Source of the DNA: a virus
Length of the DNA stretch: 41,104 nt
Direction: 5' to 3' (one strand)
Virus record (IMG/VR): IMGVR_UViG_3300035698_004487
Span: 1 to 41,104 of that record
The stretch's first letter is position 1; each line of letters opens with the position of its first letter. Positions 7,621 to 41,104 of the stretch are shown here, piece by piece. The translations under genes and the position numbers were made by a program. The notes under the pieces are model-generated. The model was given only the letters and a program-made list of their open reading frames with translations, was not told the DNA's origin and did no database searches.

Positions 7621-7649
7621 TTGACACGTCCTTCGGGACGTGCTATTCT
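7621..7649 (+). promoter_or_regulatory. Promoter whose spacer is a UUCG hairpin
   Basis: TTGACA 7621-7626, 17 bases, TATTCT 7644-7649. The spacer almost exactly forms CACGTCC-TTCG-GGACGTG (7625-7642), a 7-bp stem with a very stable cUUCGg loop. Read from upstream, the same bases would form an RNA hairpin followed by CTATTCTT, a weak terminator. It could therefore end the replication transcript and start the accessory transcript. Confidence 0.7.
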
Positions 7650-7737: not shown

Positions 7738-7898
7738 ATATTATAGATAAAATTGCACTAGGGTGCTACGTAACATTAATACCACTATTTGTTTCAGTAC
7801 AATTAATTGCTACACGGTTTGATCCAGTTATGATTGATGGTACATATAGATTTTGGTTTATAATACGCGAACTGTTTAAAATGATATTAGGGGTATAA
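7734..7898 (+). CDS. 54-residue membrane protein
   Basis: A small protein with a hydrophobic segment (about residues 5-25, IALGCYVTLIPLFVSVQLIA) and a second moderately hydrophobic one near the C-terminus. I take the ATG at 7734, with AAGGGG upstream, rather than an upstream TTG. It ends ILGV in the recurring 17-base gene joint, one base before the ankyrin gene. Confidence 0.6.
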   Translation: MNIIDKIALGCYVTLIPLFVSVQLIATRFDPVMIDGTYRFWFIIRELFKMILGV

Positions 7899-7899
7899 T

Positions 7900-8190
7900 A
7901 TGAATAAGAAGGAATTTTATAAAAATACGGATTTAAATCAGGCATGCTACCTTGGAGATATCCAAGCAGTAAAATACTGTATTGGTCGGGGAGACAAGAT
8001 CAATATCCCTAATAAGGCAGGTAACTATCCGATCCACGGGGCGACGCTGAACAACGAAATGGAAATAGTGAAACTACTATTAGCCGCAGGGGCAAACGTA
8101 TCCGTACTAAACCGCAACGGCGAGGAAGCAGTAGCGCTAGCACAACATCATTTGTACGAAGAACTTGTACAACTATTATTAACAGATTAG
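7900..8190 (+). CDS. Ankyrin-repeat protein
   Basis: A 96-residue protein made almost wholly of ankyrin repeats. LNQACYLGDIQAVKYCIGRG is a degenerate first repeat, then a canonical one (GNYPIHGATLNNEMEIVKLL followed by LAAGANVSV), then a capping repeat NGEEAVALAQHHLYEELVQL. Ankyrin repeats bind proteins and have no enzymatic role. Such small stand-alone versions are unusual in phages and suggest interaction with, or mimicry of, a host protein. The central part has visibly higher G+C (by eye) than its neighbours, consistent with recent transfer. It lies directly before the membrane-anchored ClpP-like protease; both joints carry the 17-base repeat. Confidence 0.88.
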   Translation: MNKKEFYKNTDLNQACYLGDIQAVKYCIGRGDKINIPNKAGNYPIHGATLNNEMEIVKLLLAAGANVSVLNRNGEEAVALAQHHLYEELVQLLLTD

Positions 8191-8199
8191 GGGTATAAT

Positions 8200-8928
8200 A
8201 TGATTAAAACAATAATAGTAGGGGGATTACTCTTAGGAGCGTTCCTATTACCTACACAACTAAGTACAGTAACATTTGATAAGGGAGTTACAGGAACATC
8301 CATTAGCTTACTTATAGCTAAGATGGAACTCAATGAGGATGTAACCTTACACGTAAATAGTGGAGGTGGGTCTGCTACAGCAATGAAGACATTTATGTTA
8401 TATATGAGATATAGTGATAAAACATTTGATACTTATACGAGTAGGAATGCAGCAAGCGCAGGAGCCTTGTTATGGACTATGGGTAAAACCCGAGCTATTG
8501 AGCATGATGCAGTCATCTTATACCATGGTGCCCATTTAGGTAACTATGGATTGACTCAAGATACTTTGTGTAAATCAAGTACCTTTATCTCTACAGCAAG
8601 AGGACAAGAACTATTCTCTTATGTAATTTCTAATGGTATAGCTGACACAGTGAAGGATAAGAAGTTAGCTTGGAAGGAAATTAAAAAATTAGAAACAGCT
8701 ATGACTATAGGCCGAAGCGATGGTGTAGCAGGTTTAGAACAAACCTTAGATACACTGTGTAAAAGCCTAACTACGTCTAATGATATGCAAGTGAATATAA
8801 TTATGAAGCACACAGGCTTATCAGAAGGGTATGTCAGACAGGTACTACTGGGGAACTTCAAGAAAGATATGAGATTCACTGGACAGGAATTGTATGATAT
8901 GGGAATTGCACACAAATTGGGGAGGTAA
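8200..8928 (+). CDS. Membrane-anchored ClpP/SppA-like serine protease
   Basis: 242 residues. The N-terminus IKTIIVGGLLLGAFLLP is a signal anchor or signal peptide. The rest has ClpP-fold landmarks: HVNSGGGSATA (about 51-61, oxyanion strand), NAASAGALL with probable nucleophile Ser86, ILYHGAH with candidate His109, and near the end KKDMRFTGQELYDMGIAHKL, matching the ClpP segment that carries the catalytic Asp before the final helix. An insert of about 90 residues separates His from Asp. It probably degrades membrane or periplasmic proteins, or acts in lysis or exclusion. It may equally be cytoplasmic-facing and tethered. Its neighbours are small membrane proteins, which could be partners or substrates. 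Confidence 0.8.
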   Translation: MIKTIIVGGLLLGAFLLPTQLSTVTFDKGVTGTSISLLIAKMELNEDVTLHVNSGGGSATAMKTFMLYMRYSDKTFDTYTSRNAASAGALLWTMGKTRAIEHDAVILYHGAHLGNYGLTQDTLCKSSTFISTARGQELFSYVISNGIADTVKDKKLAWKEIKKLETAMTIGRSDGVAGLEQTLDTLCKSLTTSNDMQVNIIMKHTGLSEGYVRQVLLGNFKKDMRFTGQELYDMGIAHKLGR

Positions 8929-8930
8929 GT

Positions 8931-9134
8931 ATGTTTAGTAGAATCATGGATAAAGTAACCACAGTATTTTTAGTGCTGGCAGCAGTAATACTAGTAGTCT
9001 TGTTTGGCGCGATTATTTACCAAGTACTCTACTTTGTACTAGGATTGTTCCTTTCTGCAGCTGCTACAGAGGTACTTACTTTCTTAGCAACAATAACTAC
9101 AGTATCTATAAGTTTAATTTTAATAGGAGGATAA
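8931..9134 (+). CDS. 67-residue two-span membrane protein
   Basis: Two strongly hydrophobic spans (about residues 10-42 and 48-66) in a protein with few charges outside the first eight residues. Starts two bases after the ClpP-like protease with GGGGAGG as ribosome binding site, so the two are probably co-translated. Could be a partner of the anchored protease, a holin-like pore or a superinfection-exclusion protein; the sequence does not decide. Confidence 0.68.
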   Translation: MFSRIMDKVTTVFLVLAAVILVVLFGAIIYQVLYFVLGLFLSAAATEVLTFLATITTVSISLILIGG

Positions 9135-10547: not shown

Positions 10548-10727
10548 ATGAGCAAAGCTACGAGAAGTAAACAGAAAGCATTGGAAAAGCAGTTTATGGC
10601 AATTGCTTCGATCAAGTCTTTACACGACTCGCATATGGTATGTACATATGATACCCTAATAGATATAGTGAATAGACTACAAGAACTAGAAAAGGCCAGA
10701 ATAATTAATGGGGAGATTTATGAGTAA
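10548..10727 (+). CDS. Hypothetical 59-residue helical protein
   Basis: Basic N-terminus, then helices. Its start context (ATGGGGATTTATGAGCAAA) closely resembles that of the next gene (ATGGGGAGATTTATGAGTAAA), hinting at a duplicated translation start region. The end overlaps the ClpP gene by 8 bases. Confidence 0.58.
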   Translation: MSKATRSKQKALEKQFMAIASIKSLHDSHMVCTYDTLIDIVNRLQELEKARIINGEIYE

Positions 10728-11322
10728 ATTAATGGAACAATTATTTCACGAGATACAAGCTAATCAACCACATAAACTTAAGGATCAACGAATCATTATG
10801 GTTTGTGAGCAGATAGATGATGAATCTGCGGAACGCATTAGTAAAGATTTATTAGAAATGGACCAAAAAGAAAACTCTGATATTATAATGTACATCAATT
10901 CACCAGGAGGATGTGTACATAGCGGGTTTCAAATTATAGATACTATGAACTTTATTGACTCAGACGTGATTACTATTAATACTGGCATGGCCGCATCTAT
11001 GGGATTTTGTATACTAGTTAATGGAGCAAAGGGGAAACGTTTCTCACTACCTCATTCCCAGGCTATGGCGCACCAGGTGAGCAGCGGCACGAGTGGAATG
11101 GTAGTAGACCAAGAGATTAGATTAGAGCACTCTAAGCGCATAAACAAGGTCTTAATGCAAATCATATCCAAGTCTATTGGTAAATCTTTAGTTGAGGTTA
11201 TGGAGATTGTAGATAGGGATGCATGGTTCAATGCAAAAGAAATGTTGAAGTTAGGTGGGGTTGATGCTATACTTAAAACTAAGGATGACCTATTTAAACA
11301 TTTTGAAAAGAAAGGTAAGTAA
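10720..11322 (+). CDS. clpP: ClpP-family serine protease
   Basis: 200 residues, the usual ClpP size. Landmarks: IIMYINSPGGCVHSG (about 55-69, oxyanion region), TGMAASMGFCIL with nucleophile Ser93, LPHSQAMAHQ with His118, and DRDAWFNAKEMLKLGGVDAI with Asp167, giving a complete Ser-His-Asp triad. The N-terminus lacks the usual (A)LVPxVIE axial-gate sequence and instead reads SKLMEQLFHEIQANQP. ClpP degrades unfolded chains fed by an AAA+ partner, and a ClpX-like unfoldase lies 1.6 kb downstream. The ATG at 10720 is preferred over 10708 because GGGGAG lies at the right distance. Soluble; no signal sequence. Alternative role: capsid or scaffold protease, but its distance from the head genes argues against that. 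Confidence 0.93.
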   Translation: MSKLMEQLFHEIQANQPHKLKDQRIIMVCEQIDDESAERISKDLLEMDQKENSDIIMYINSPGGCVHSGFQIIDTMNFIDSDVITINTGMAASMGFCILVNGAKGKRFSLPHSQAMAHQVSSGTSGMVVDQEIRLEHSKRINKVLMQIISKSIGKSLVEVMEIVDRDAWFNAKEMLKLGGVDAILKTKDDLFKHFEKKGK

Positions 11323-11537
11323 TGTTATATTGGATCGGCACATTATGTATAGTATCAACAATGCTATGTCAAACAATAAGTACTAAGTACATGGTATGGT
11401 CGTTCTACTTCATGGTACTAGGTTCAAGTATAAATCTTATTCATGGACTTATGACTGGACAAGGGCCGCTCGTACTATTAAATGTTGTGGCAGTTATATT
11501 GGCGATTAGAGGGATAGTAATCTGGAGGAAGAAATAA
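11322..11537 (+). CDS. 71-residue membrane protein, probably 3 spans
   Basis: Starts on the last base of the ClpP stop codon. Hydrophobic spans at about 3-17, 24-43 and 49-67, with a basic end IWRKK. Translational coupling to ClpP is evident. Function unknown; candidate membrane partner or target of the protease, or simply an accessory membrane protein. Confidence 0.65.
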   Translation: MLYWIGTLCIVSTMLCQTISTKYMVWSFYFMVLGSSINLIHGLMTGQGPLVLLNVVAVILAIRGIVIWRKK

Positions 11538-11549
11538 TAGAGGTACCAA

Positions 11550-12338
11550 ATGACTAAAACAATTATACTATTAAGTGGAAAGCAAAGAAGCGGTAAAGAT
11601 ACTGTGGCAGATATACTTAAGGAAGATGGATTTAAGAGAGTAGCTTTTGCAGATAAGCTTAAGTTTGAGGTGGCTAGAGCATATGGGCTTACATTAGAGA
11701 ACTTAGAGGAATTAAAGAACACTACTGCGGAATATAGAGGTCTACTTATTGCATGGGCTAAATGTAGAACCCTAGAAAATCCAACATACTTTGTAGAGCA
11801 ATCGCTTAAGATGGTAGATGCGGAAGATAGGATAATTGTTACGGATTTTAGGTTTCCTAAGGAATATGATGTACTGAAGAAACTATATCCAGAAGCCACC
11901 ATTACTACAGTTAGGGTGGAATGTTCTGAAGAAATAAGAAAGACTAGAGGAACTATCTCCAATTCTACAGATGCCTCTGAAATATCTTTAGATCAATATA
12001 AATTTGATCGGACGATATATAATGAAGGTACCTTAGATGAACTTATTGCAGATGTTAAGTTAGAAGATATAGCTAGTAAGCTACTTTCACATGAAGAAGT
12101 ATGGGAGCAAGAATTATTAGCTGCACTAGAGAGAGATGAATTTGAAATGATCCATTTGGATCCGGAGACAGGGGAACATATGCCGACAACCCCGGGTTGC
12201 ATAGTAAATACTTGGGATGTATGTTCTACAGAGGAATATATAAAAATGATTGACAAGGATCCTTTATTGACTCACAATGAGAAGAAGAGTAAGTTACATA
12301 AAGCACTTACGGGTTTAATTAATTTGGAGGTAAGTTAA
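11550..12338 (+). CDS. Deoxynucleoside monophosphate kinase (T4 gp1-like) with C-terminal extension
   Basis: 262 residues. P-loop at the N-terminus (LLSGKQRSGKDTVADIL), followed by the dNMP-kinase hallmark GFKRVAFADKLK, an IVTDFRFPKEYD segment (Walker B/lid region) and a TVRVECSEE strand. This matches the T4 gp1/phage dNMP kinase family, which converts dNMPs to dNDPs to recycle host DNA. The kinase part ends near residue 175; about 85 acidic residues follow, rich in Glu and Leu, which are not part of the usual fold and may be a fused unknown domain. The stop overlaps the next ATG (TAATG). Confidence 0.85.
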   Translation: MTKTIILLSGKQRSGKDTVADILKEDGFKRVAFADKLKFEVARAYGLTLENLEELKNTTAEYRGLLIAWAKCRTLENPTYFVEQSLKMVDAEDRIIVTDFRFPKEYDVLKKLYPEATITTVRVECSEEIRKTRGTISNSTDASEISLDQYKFDRTIYNEGTLDELIADVKLEDIASKLLSHEEVWEQELLAALERDEFEMIHLDPETGEHMPTTPGCIVNTWDVCSTEEYIKMIDKDPLLTHNEKKSKLHKALTGLINLEVS

Positions 12339-12610
12339 TGAGCACACAGTACACAATATACCTGCAGCGCGATACTGGAGATTATGTAGAAATAGAGGAG
12401 TTTGATTGGAAGTGCCCTCTATCAGATCACATGAGAACTAAGTATGGGGGAGATATAATAAACCAAATGCATGCAGTAGAAATAGAGGTAGAGGATATAA
12501 ATATTTTGATTGGTACAGAATATCATTCTAAAGCACAAAGACTTATAGAGATAATAGAATACTGTTCTCCTCTTCTACCTGACCACAAATTTATTTATAT
12601 GGAAGTTTAA
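12338..12610 (+). CDS. Hypothetical 90-residue acidic protein
   Basis: Translationally coupled to the dNMP kinase, with GGAGG upstream. Strand-rich start (QYTIYLQRDTGDYVEI) and acidic throughout. No family is recognised. Confidence 0.62.
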   Translation: MSTQYTIYLQRDTGDYVEIEEFDWKCPLSDHMRTKYGGDIINQMHAVEIEVEDINILIGTEYHSKAQRLIEIIEYCSPLLPDHKFIYMEV

Positions 12611-12626
12611 TTAATTTAGAGATATA

Positions 12627-12872
12627 ATGCAGGAATATATAAAAATAATAAAAGCTTATGATAATGTACAGAGTGTAGAGCTAGAAGATAGTGGTAGCAT
12701 TTATGTTATAGTAGATAGGCATGATACCCATCTAGGGCTTTATGAAACTTGTTTTAGGCTTCTTCCTAAAGACTTAAGAACCAAGAAAATGTTTATGAAG
12801 AAATTGGAGAAAGCATATAATCCATTTAAACATCTATCTAAAGAAAAACTTTCTGAAAATTCAATTATATAA
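12627..12872 (+). CDS. Hypothetical 81-residue protein
   Basis: Starts 16 bases after the previous stop, with AGAGA as a weak ribosome binding site. An acidic strand-rich half is followed by a basic helical half (KKMFMKKLEKAYN). It ends 8 bases before the promoter at 12881. No family is recognised. Confidence 0.58.
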   Translation: MQEYIKIIKAYDNVQSVELEDSGSIYVIVDRHDTHLGLYETCFRLLPKDLRTKKMFMKKLEKAYNPFKHLSKEKLSENSII

Positions 12873-12880
12873 CTTAGGTA

Positions 12881-12909
12881 TTGACTAAGCCTCGAAAATA
12901 TGCTATAAT
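12881..12909 (+). promoter_or_regulatory. Sigma70 promoter of the AAA+ unfoldase gene
   Basis: TTGACT 12881-12886, 17-base spacer, TATAAT 12904-12909. The spacer and flanks (AGCCTCGAAAATATG) are nearly identical to the minus-strand promoter at 33336-33364. A hairpin begins at the predicted RNA start. Confidence 0.85.
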
Positions 12910-12916
12910 ATATATA

Positions 12917-12949
12917 GGGCTGTTTTTTCTTCAAAATTTTTTACAGCCC
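12917..12949 (+). promoter_or_regulatory. 5' leader hairpin with GGGCTGT/ACAGCCC stem
   Basis: 7-bp stem 12917-12923/12943-12949 around a loop starting TTTTTTCTTCAAAA. It mirrors the hairpin at 1084-1111, with a T-A pair where that one has C-G, a compensatory change that supports RNA structure. The unfoldase ATG is 21 bases downstream. Confidence 0.68.
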
Positions 12950-12970
12950 GAAATCACATATAGGTTCAGG

Positions 12971-14152
12971 ATGAATGTCAAGGAAATCATTGCTAAGTTA
13001 GATATAACTGTCTATGGACAGAAAGAAGCAAAGAAAGCATTGGCATCCGCAGCACACCTATGGTCACTTCAAACATATAAGACATTCAATCATCAATTAT
13101 ACAGTAACATATTAATTACAGGCCCAAGTGGTAGTGGTAAAACACTTATGACTAGAGAGCTTGCTAAGATATTAGATGTAGAGTGCTATGAGACCGATGC
13201 AAGTAAATTAACTCCAGAAGGATATATTGGAGTAACTCTCTCTGAGGAGATTGGTAATGTCATGAAATTCTTTAAAGTTAAGAATATGTCTGATATTAGG
13301 GGCATTGTATTTCTAGATGAAATAGATAAGCTAACCTCTGCTAGAGGGGATGATAGAGGATTTAAGGCCCAGGTGCAGGGACAGATGCTAAAGATTATTG
13401 AGGACAGTCCTAATATATTGTGGGTATTGTCTGGTAACTACTCTGAGATTCGTGCCACAAGGAAAACAATTGGTATAGGTAAGAAGTTAGTAGAGAAGGT
13501 TCACGTGGATAGCATTCCGGAGTCGTTGGAAAATATTGGCGTTTCTTCACAATTACTAGGAAGGATAAGGTACTATGCTGCGTTAGAGAAATTTACAGAG
13601 AAAGATTACATCAATATACTAAAAAACCCTAAATATGTTATGGGGCCCTACTTAAATACTTCTAAAGGATTAGGGATTAAGTTTGATATAACTAAGGATC
13701 AAATCAAAGAGATAGCTAAAGAATGTGCTACAGGAGATACAGGAGCTAGAAAATTAGCTCAAGAGTTAAATAAGATCTTTACAGAGGAGATTAAGAACAT
13801 TGCTTTCTCAAGCCCGGACATATCCATTAAAAAATCTAGTGGAAAGGTGGAGATAGATTATGACAACATTGCTAAGTTCCTTGGAGCAGGCGGTAAAGTT
13901 AAAACTAAAGATCTCTGGGAGCGAGTTCATCTTGCTGAAGAGAAATCTGAAATGTACAAGAAGAAACTATCTAATGTAAGACGTAGTCCTAAGTGGCATA
14001 TATTTAAGGCGTTCTATGCTGAAGCCAATAGAAAGAGAGAAGATGAAATGGAGGAAGTGAGAGAGCTCCACCAGAAGAACATTCGCATTGCCAACAAAAT
14101 AAAAGAAGGTGGATTTTTTGCTTACATGAAGGCTTGGATGATTAGTGATTGA
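12971..14152 (+). CDS. ClpX/HslU-like AAA+ protein unfoldase
   Basis: 393 residues from the ATG at 12971 (the frame is open upstream through the promoter, so the shorter form is preferred). Walker A GPSGSGKT (51-58), pore loop GYIG (84-87), Walker B IVFLDEIDK (112-120), sensor 1 Asn156, arginine finger in LLGRIRYYAALEKF (Arg188) and sensor 2 GDTGARKLAQEL. Between sensor 1 and the Arg finger, TIGIG (166-170) sits where ClpX has the ClpP-docking IGF loop. The ClpX zinc-binding N-domain is absent. After about residue 300 there is an approximately 90-residue basic, coiled-coil-like extension ending GGFFAYMKAWMISD, unlike ClpX. With the phage ClpP upstream it probably forms a protease, either on its own or also with host ClpP. 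Confidence 0.88.
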   Translation: MNVKEIIAKLDITVYGQKEAKKALASAAHLWSLQTYKTFNHQLYSNILITGPSGSGKTLMTRELAKILDVECYETDASKLTPEGYIGVTLSEEIGNVMKFFKVKNMSDIRGIVFLDEIDKLTSARGDDRGFKAQVQGQMLKIIEDSPNILWVLSGNYSEIRATRKTIGIGKKLVEKVHVDSIPESLENIGVSSQLLGRIRYYAALEKFTEKDYINILKNPKYVMGPYLNTSKGLGIKFDITKDQIKEIAKECATGDTGARKLAQELNKIFTEEIKNIAFSSPDISIKKSSGKVEIDYDNIAKFLGAGGKVKTKDLWERVHLAEEKSEMYKKKLSNVRRSPKWHIFKAFYAEANRKREDEMEEVRELHQKNIRIANKIKEGGFFAYMKAWMISD

Positions 14153-33309: not shown

Positions 33310-33335
33310 TTTTGTTCCTCTATTGTACTATATAT

Positions 33336-33364
33336 AGTGTATCATATTTTCGAGGCTATGTCAA
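33336..33364 (-). promoter_or_regulatory. Late-operon internal promoter (minus strand)
   Basis: Read on the minus strand: TTGACA (33364-33359), 17 bases, TACACT (33341-33336), then ATATATAG. Spacer AGCCTCGAAAATATG is shared with the plus-strand promoter at 12881. It would add transcripts of portal, scaffold and capsid, separate from terminase. Confidence 0.83.
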
Positions 33365-33396
33365 GGGGTAAGTGCATATAATGTCAAGTTTTTTAT

Positions 33397-38508: not shown

Positions 38509-38517
38509 CTATAGGGG

Positions 38518-38546
38518 TTGACTAAGCCTATTTTATACTGTATAAT
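38518..38546 (+). promoter_or_regulatory. Early rightward promoter
   Basis: TTGACT 38518-38523, 17 bases, TATAAT 38541-38546, then TAAAGGTAACAACAATTAG. A second TTGACT at 38505 lies 13 bases upstream. The start AAGCC of the spacer resembles the 12881 promoter. Confidence 0.83.
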
Positions 38547-40634: not shown

Positions 40635-41104
40635 GAGTAGAAATCGCAGAGACATGATTCGTTTGGCCACGCCAGAGGATCAGTCTCCCGAAGATAAGTT
40701 TACTATTAAGGCCATGTATGACTGGGTTTCTGCAGCTAACGACATGTATGAATCTAGAGGTAAGGAGATACGCTATGAAGTAGACCATGTAACTCCCCTA
40801 ACATCATCCGGCAAGCATACGCCCGACAACCTACAAGTTATCACTATGGAGCAGAACCGTAAGAAAGGTACTGACAATGTAGAAGGTAAGAGAGAAAAGA
40901 ATGCCATTAAGTTAGAACGTATACTTAATTGGATTAAAGTTAAAGACTCTCGCAATACAGATGGTACAGTTAAGAAAGGTGTCAGTGGTAACGCTGGCGG
41001 CCGCCCACCTAGTATAAAAAAGATAACTGTAGAAGTAGATGAAGATGTAATCAAATGGTTAGATGATATCGCTGCGTCGTATGACGGTTCAGTAGAGTCT
41101 AAAC
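40618..41104 (+). CDS. HNH endonuclease fused to ribbon-helix-helix domain (N-terminal part)
   Basis: Open to the window end and continuing in frame at base 9 once the 8-base terminal overlap is merged; the full protein is 230 residues. The HNH core is RYEVDHVTPLTSSGKHTPDN (near 52-71) then LQVITMEQNRKKG. A GNAGGRPPS hinge (about 125-133) precedes KITVEVDEDVIKWLDDIA, the strand and first helix of a ribbon-helix-helix DNA-binding domain. It may be a site-directed nicking or homing enzyme. HNH proteins are also found as terminase partners, so a packaging role is possible but unproven. Confidence 0.85.
   Translation, partial: MSTKDKSRNRRDMIRLATPEDQSPEDKFTIKAMYDWVSAANDMYESRGKEIRYEVDHVTPLTSSGKHTPDNLQVITMEQNRKKGTDNVEGKREKNAIKLERILNWIKVKDSRNTDGTVKKGVSGNAGGRPPSIKKITVEVDEDVIKWLDDIAASYDGSVESK

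Follow-up and report, generated by a model that had tools for sequence, protein, structure and literature searches.

Does a small phage encode its own ClpXP-like ATP-dependent protease? The question is raised by IMG/VR virus record IMGVR_UViG_3300035698_004487, analysed here over a stretch of 41,104 bases (the window), which carries both a ClpP peptidase (200 aa; 10720..11322, plus strand) and a ClpX-like AAA+ unfoldase (393 aa; 12971..14152, plus strand). A sequence-only reading had proposed that the two form an unfoldase-peptidase pair, and family-level evidence (a ClpX-like AAA+ protein, a PF00574 ClpP and a docking loop) supports this; judging from the sequences, we put the probability that the phage encodes such a protease at roughly 60%. 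In the predicted machine, a hexameric AAA+ ring would grip substrates via its GYIG pore loops, unfold them with ATP and thread them into the chamber of the phage ClpP, in whose hydrophobic clefts its TIGIGKKL loops would dock.

The clpP open reading frame spans 10708-11322, and the likelier start is the ATG at 10720, which has GGGGAG ahead of it, with the ATG at 10708 as an alternative. Its product scores above the Pfam cut-off for PF00574 (E=2.5e-49; 168 bits versus 20.2), its AlphaFold2 (AF2) model has a ClpP fold (predicted local distance difference test score, pLDDT, 85.6), and every top PDB fold match is a ClpP, although it remains under the cut-off of the ClpP equivalog TIGR00493 (147.3 versus 308.6 bits). 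Alignment to E. coli ClpP bears out the intact triad that had been claimed, placing Ser93, His118 and Asp167 at S97, H122 and D171. The docking-cleft residues Y62, F82, I90, F112, L114 and L189 (E. coli numbering) are retained, whereas M92 is replaced by T, Y60 by I and R192 by K.

The AAA+ gene starts at ATG 12971. A TTG start at 12881, which would open a 423-aa frame, was rejected, as it is the first base of a promoter −35 hexamer (TTGACT). In the alignment we located the motifs named by the sequence-only reading: the GYIG pore loop (residues 84-87), the Arg198 finger, the sensor-2 GAR (258-260) and IGIG (I167-G-I-G170), together with Walker A (51-58) and Walker B (112-117). The closest named relatives are ClpX proteins (PDB search, E=1.3e-23), and ClpX is the best NCBIfam family, at 117.8 and 107.8 bits compared with 77.9 for HslU, all below the respective cut-offs (359 and 370.75 bits for the ClpX equivalogs, 362.45 for HslU). 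The predicted fold is also nearest to ClpX, as is partly expected from a model built on a ClpX-rich alignment. As had been claimed, the zinc-binding domain of ClpX has been lost: the protein starts directly with the AAA+ core, and PF06689, which matches the phage G gp258 control, does not match it. The segment holding the RKH loop is deleted relative to E. coli ClpX, a loss that the sequence-only reading overlooked, and the pore-2 loop is also shorter. Since it lies under the equivalog cut-offs and lacks two ClpX features, we file the protein as ClpX-like rather than as ClpX; the PHROG assignment is uninformative, phrog_4339 lumping ClpX-, HslU- and L024-like proteins (L024 being the phage contig IMGVR_UViG_3300006919_000937). 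In summary, the window pair shares with E. coli ClpXP the AAA+ core, a GYVG-type pore loop, an IGF-type loop, sensor 2, the ClpP triad and most cleft residues, but differs in the missing zinc domain and RKH loop, the shortened pore-2 loop, IGI in place of IGF, a long helical C-terminal extension, and a ClpP that has K at R192 and no canonical N-terminal collar.

The feature that most directly concerns pairing is the putative IGF-type ClpP-docking loop at residues 163-178 (TRKTIGIGKKLVEKVH; 13457..13504, plus strand). Between sensor 1 and the Arg finger the window protein has 37 residues, as against 11 in HslU, 19 in N4-like phage proteins and 44-52 in ClpX. Within this segment, TIGIGKKL aligns I167, I169 and L173 with E. 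coli ClpX I268, F270 and V274, whose three side chains pack into ClpP (PMC7112951), and the preceding residues resemble those of phage G (IRATRKTIGIG in the window, RRATKSTLGF in phage G). The loop is modelled as coil with low confidence (pLDDT about 60), the remainder of the core being confidently predicted. By alignment, then, a ClpX-type docking loop is present, in agreement with the earlier placement of IGIG at the IGF-loop position: its length is near that of ClpX and its three contact positions are hydrophobic. The best argument for docking is that the loop survived with these positions while adjacent ClpX-specific parts went, and that loop presence follows ClpP presence among phages.

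This second argument comes from a survey of AAA+ homologues. ClpP occurs in 7 of 8 loop-bearing named phages or fragments (Atu_ph07, SCTP-2, PA5oct, phage G, Lak-B5, Phosso and one gut fragment; none was seen in a second gut fragment), compared with 0 of 5 clear loop-less phages (KPP21, LUZ7, KpCHEMY26, phi50-12 and Simmy50); a further loop-less Proteus phage has one weak match. Among viral contigs of at least 100 kb, ClpP is found in 23 of 30 with the loop versus 0 of 3 without. Against a size-matched baseline, the counts are 7/30 for loop-bearing contigs of 9-36 kb and 0/42 for contigs of the phage's own capsid clade (Fisher p=0.0014, indicative only, as the records compared are related to one another). 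Three ClpX contigs (L027, L028 and L083) closely resemble E. coli ClpX and possibly represent host flank. ClpX-type phage homologues thus do co-occur with ClpP, the two genes even overlapping in L024, and the pairing survives the co-occurrence check that the sequence-only reading had set for it. Its view that a matching unfoldase and ClpP in one phage genome is unusual does not hold, since large phages commonly have the combination and it has been published before (PMC6102473, PMC7824862).

Phage-encoded ClpX plus ClpP is indeed documented: Bacillus phage G has adjacent genes annotated as such (gp257, ClpP; gp258, ClpX), in Agrobacterium phage Atu_ph07, gp2 is listed as ClpX and gp676 as a Clp proteolytic subunit (PMC6102473), and phage ClpP and ClpX are also named in a survey of jumbo phages (PMC7824862). 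The pairing is therefore known, and the window pair is an unusual stripped variant: ClpX of phage G and Atu_ph07 keeps the zinc-binding N-terminus and the RKH motif in genomes of about 0.5 Mb, whereas the window has a stripped AAA+ protein in 41 kb. Only for a small podophage is a ClpX-like protein with ClpP unusual. In the literature searched, of partial coverage, we found no description of a stripped ClpX in a small phage. HslU and loop-less phage proteins such as Erwinia phage Simmy50 gp119 and N4-like KPP21 ORF075 share the Clp/Hsp100-type AAA+ core but have no IGF-type insertion, and neither of these two phage genomes yielded a ClpP.

The window represents a podophage-type record that is complete or nearly so. 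Its ends (1-8 and 41097-41104) have 8 nt in common (GTCTAAAC) and joining them keeps a 233-aa HNH-like frame open, which suggests a complete circular assembly. Structural genes are on the minus strand, and the capsid protein is ~40% identical to the pelagiphage HTVC010P group, with weaker likeness to vibriophage capsids; replication, nucleotide-metabolism and small genes occupy the plus strand between 224 and about 15,300. Both clpP and the AAA+ gene lie inside this early cluster, separated by a gene for a small membrane protein, a dNMP (deoxynucleoside monophosphate) kinase gene and two small open reading frames. Among relatives by capsid protein, ClpP was found in 0/8 relatives and 0/42 related contigs, and the AAA+ protein in essentially none. 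Single-sequence scans of viral contigs gave no relatives of the AAA+ protein, ClpP or capsid (a 9-sequence AAA+ alignment was too diverse as a scan query), and a genome-contig scan returned only bacterial relatives at 27-32% identity, with no closer cellular source.

Several observations weigh against a working ClpXP-like pair. The equivalent of E. coli F270 is I in the window loop and that of ClpP R192 is K; E. coli ClpX with F270L in its IGF loop, or E. coli ClpP with R192K, is severely impaired in docking (PMC7112951), and these window counterparts of two interface-breaking changes are the chief ground for doubting docking. The canonical N-terminal sequence that builds the axial collar of other ClpPs is not conserved in the window ClpP, and most of the AAA+ pore-2 loop is gone. 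A distance of 1.6 kb, holding nucleotide-metabolism genes, separates the two genes. The identity of the AAA+ protein to its L024 counterpart is only about 30%, and 53 of 95 loop-bearing viral contigs, most of them fragments, show no ClpP. The lysine at the R192 position may be tolerated, as phage G ClpP has it too, and a compensated private interface is possible.

Alternatively, the AAA+ protein could serve as a ClpP-independent unfoldase or remodelling chaperone, with replication or virion proteins as conceivable clients, and its loop would then be a relic. The replacement of F270 by I fits this account, as does the abundance of loop-less ClpX/HslU-like AAA+ proteins among N4-like, T5-like and Agrican-type phages, where a ClpP partner is almost always lacking; but the window loop has kept its length and three hydrophobic contacts although other ClpX parts were lost, the window does have a ClpP, and L024 pairs the same AAA+ type with one, so we regard this as unlikely. 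Docking on host ClpP, which the phage would redirect while its own ClpP worked separately or in mixed rings, seems to us somewhat less likely still: some zinc-less, loop-bearing viral ClpX proteins do occur in contigs without ClpP (e.g., L026, 61 kb), but this phage supplies a ClpP itself, the cleft of which is largely intact, and the IGI loop may fit host ClpP poorly, as even F270L weakens E. coli docking (PMC7112951). Finally, that ClpP is a head-maturation protease unrelated to the AAA+ protein is highly improbable, and action on scaffold, as the sequence-only reading had entertained, is unlikely: PHROGs gives head maturation protease as its best label, but phrog_94 lumps canonical ClpP with head proteases and is uninformative here, whereas the NCBIfam score is 58.5 for the ClpP-related head protease NF045542 (cut-off, 120) versus 169.7 for ATP-dependent ClpP, clpP lies far from the capsid operon on the opposite strand in the early cluster, relatives with the same capsid module have no ClpP, and a scaffold-like gene adjoins the window capsid gene.

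Two further groups of AAA+ proteins emerged from the survey. Loop-less ClpX/HslU-like proteins of N4-like, T5-like and Agrican-type phages (L003 3917-4759, L010 2498-3310, L012 1480-3189 and L015 1426-2277) are probably ClpP-independent remodellers; three of the four are without ClpP, and the Proteus phage of L015 has one weak match. A clade of zinc-less viral ClpX proteins of 375-387 aa with an intact IGF-type loop (L019, L021, L026, L029, L034, L036, L039, L040, L055 and L060), with no ClpP seen in those contigs searched, provides candidates for host-ClpP hijacking.

By sequence, the nearest relative of the window AAA+ protein appears to be that of L024, with which it pairs in the tree outside both ClpX and HslU, on very long branches (Shimodaira-Hasegawa-like approximate likelihood-ratio test, SH-aLRT, 89), a further caution for the reading of the window genes as a protease. 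The 16-kb phage contig L024 encodes DNA polymerase A and has a tail-fibre gene. It holds a contiguous three-gene operon for a 239-aa Clp-fold protein whose N-terminal segment is hydrophobic (1753-2472), a 330-aa zinc-less ClpX-like protein with the loop IRAERDKKQAPTMGF, and a canonical ClpP, whose gene start overlaps the ClpX-like gene stop by 4 nt. The window holds the same three parts, dispersed: its possible third component is a second Clp-fold serine protease (242 aa; 8200..8928, plus strand; PF00574, 1.9e-8) in the same early cluster, followed by a gene for a 67-aa membrane protein (8931-9134). This protease, which the sequence-only reading had missed, keeps the aligned Ser and His and has its hydropathy maximum at residues 1-17, a putative signal or membrane anchor. 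Its likeness to the first L024 protein is weak (5e-5), and the shared fold may have been gained independently; used as a query, the L024 membrane protein found itself and one fragment only, and nothing in named phages. The two systems thus have in common a zinc-less ClpX-like AAA+ protein with a docking loop, a ClpP and a membrane-anchored ClpP-like protein, but L024 differs in its contiguous operon, canonical ClpP, retained RKH-like loop and MGF, and lack of a C-terminal extension. A bolder proposal, which we advance tentatively and consider unlikely, is that such a three-part module, combining a membrane-anchored Clp-fold protease with a zinc-less ClpX-like unfoldase and a soluble ClpP, is a recurrent feature of small phages only distantly related to one another. 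The window pair would then have co-evolved to a private interface, marked by the IGI loop, the missing ClpP collar and the shortened pore-2 loop, from which host ClpX and ClpP are excluded, and a new C-terminal domain would reprogram substrate choice.

What would a ClpXP-like protease of this phage degrade? The zinc domain of ClpX serves in adaptor and substrate binding. In E. coli ClpX, recognition of ssrA involves the RKH and pore-2 loops (PMC7112951, PMC9035409). With the zinc domain and RKH loop lost and the pore-2 loop shortened, ordinary ssrA-tagged or adaptor-delivered proteins are, by analogy, unlikely clients. Substrates would most likely be host or phage proteins of the early or replication phase, probably chosen through the helical C-terminal extension or a phage adaptor. 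If the pair works, it would be a stripped-down natural ClpXP that shows how far the ClpX-ClpP interface and ssrA-type substrate choice can drift without stopping the machine. It would also offer a direct route to the proteins that a small phage degrades while taking over, and it may yield an orthogonal degradation machine without cross-talk to host ClpXP.

The extension (residues 281-393; 13811..14149, plus strand) is predicted to comprise a low-confidence linker and two long helices (312-335 and 342-392). The sequence-only reading had described it as basic; the extension is there, but it is only mildly basic (25 K+R versus 18 D+E). It has no Pfam match above cut-off and no tblastn match in the phage collection, and we traced it to no family.

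The AAA+ gene also has its own promoter, as previously suggested: a sigma-70-type TTGACT-17-TATAAT with extended TG (12881..12909, plus strand), matching the consensus at 11/12 positions, the best of 41 matches in 8.5 kb. Between it and the start codon lies a 5' leader hairpin (GGGCTGT/ACAGCCC; 12917..12949, plus strand) that is no more stable than shuffled sequence (z −0.89). The extended promoter block (12872-12917) recurs at 33328-33373 on the minus strand, in the structural operon after the terminase gene, and at 38512-38546 on the plus strand, upstream of a right-end gene. Elsewhere, a promoter-like TTGACA-17-TATTCT at 7621-7649 encloses a perfect inverted repeat, CACGTCCTTCGGGACGTG, which overlaps the −35 element and could be an operator, and a near-identical 22-nt block, ATTAGGGGTATAATATGA, is found at several gene starts (1798-1819, 7886-7907 and 8186-8207).

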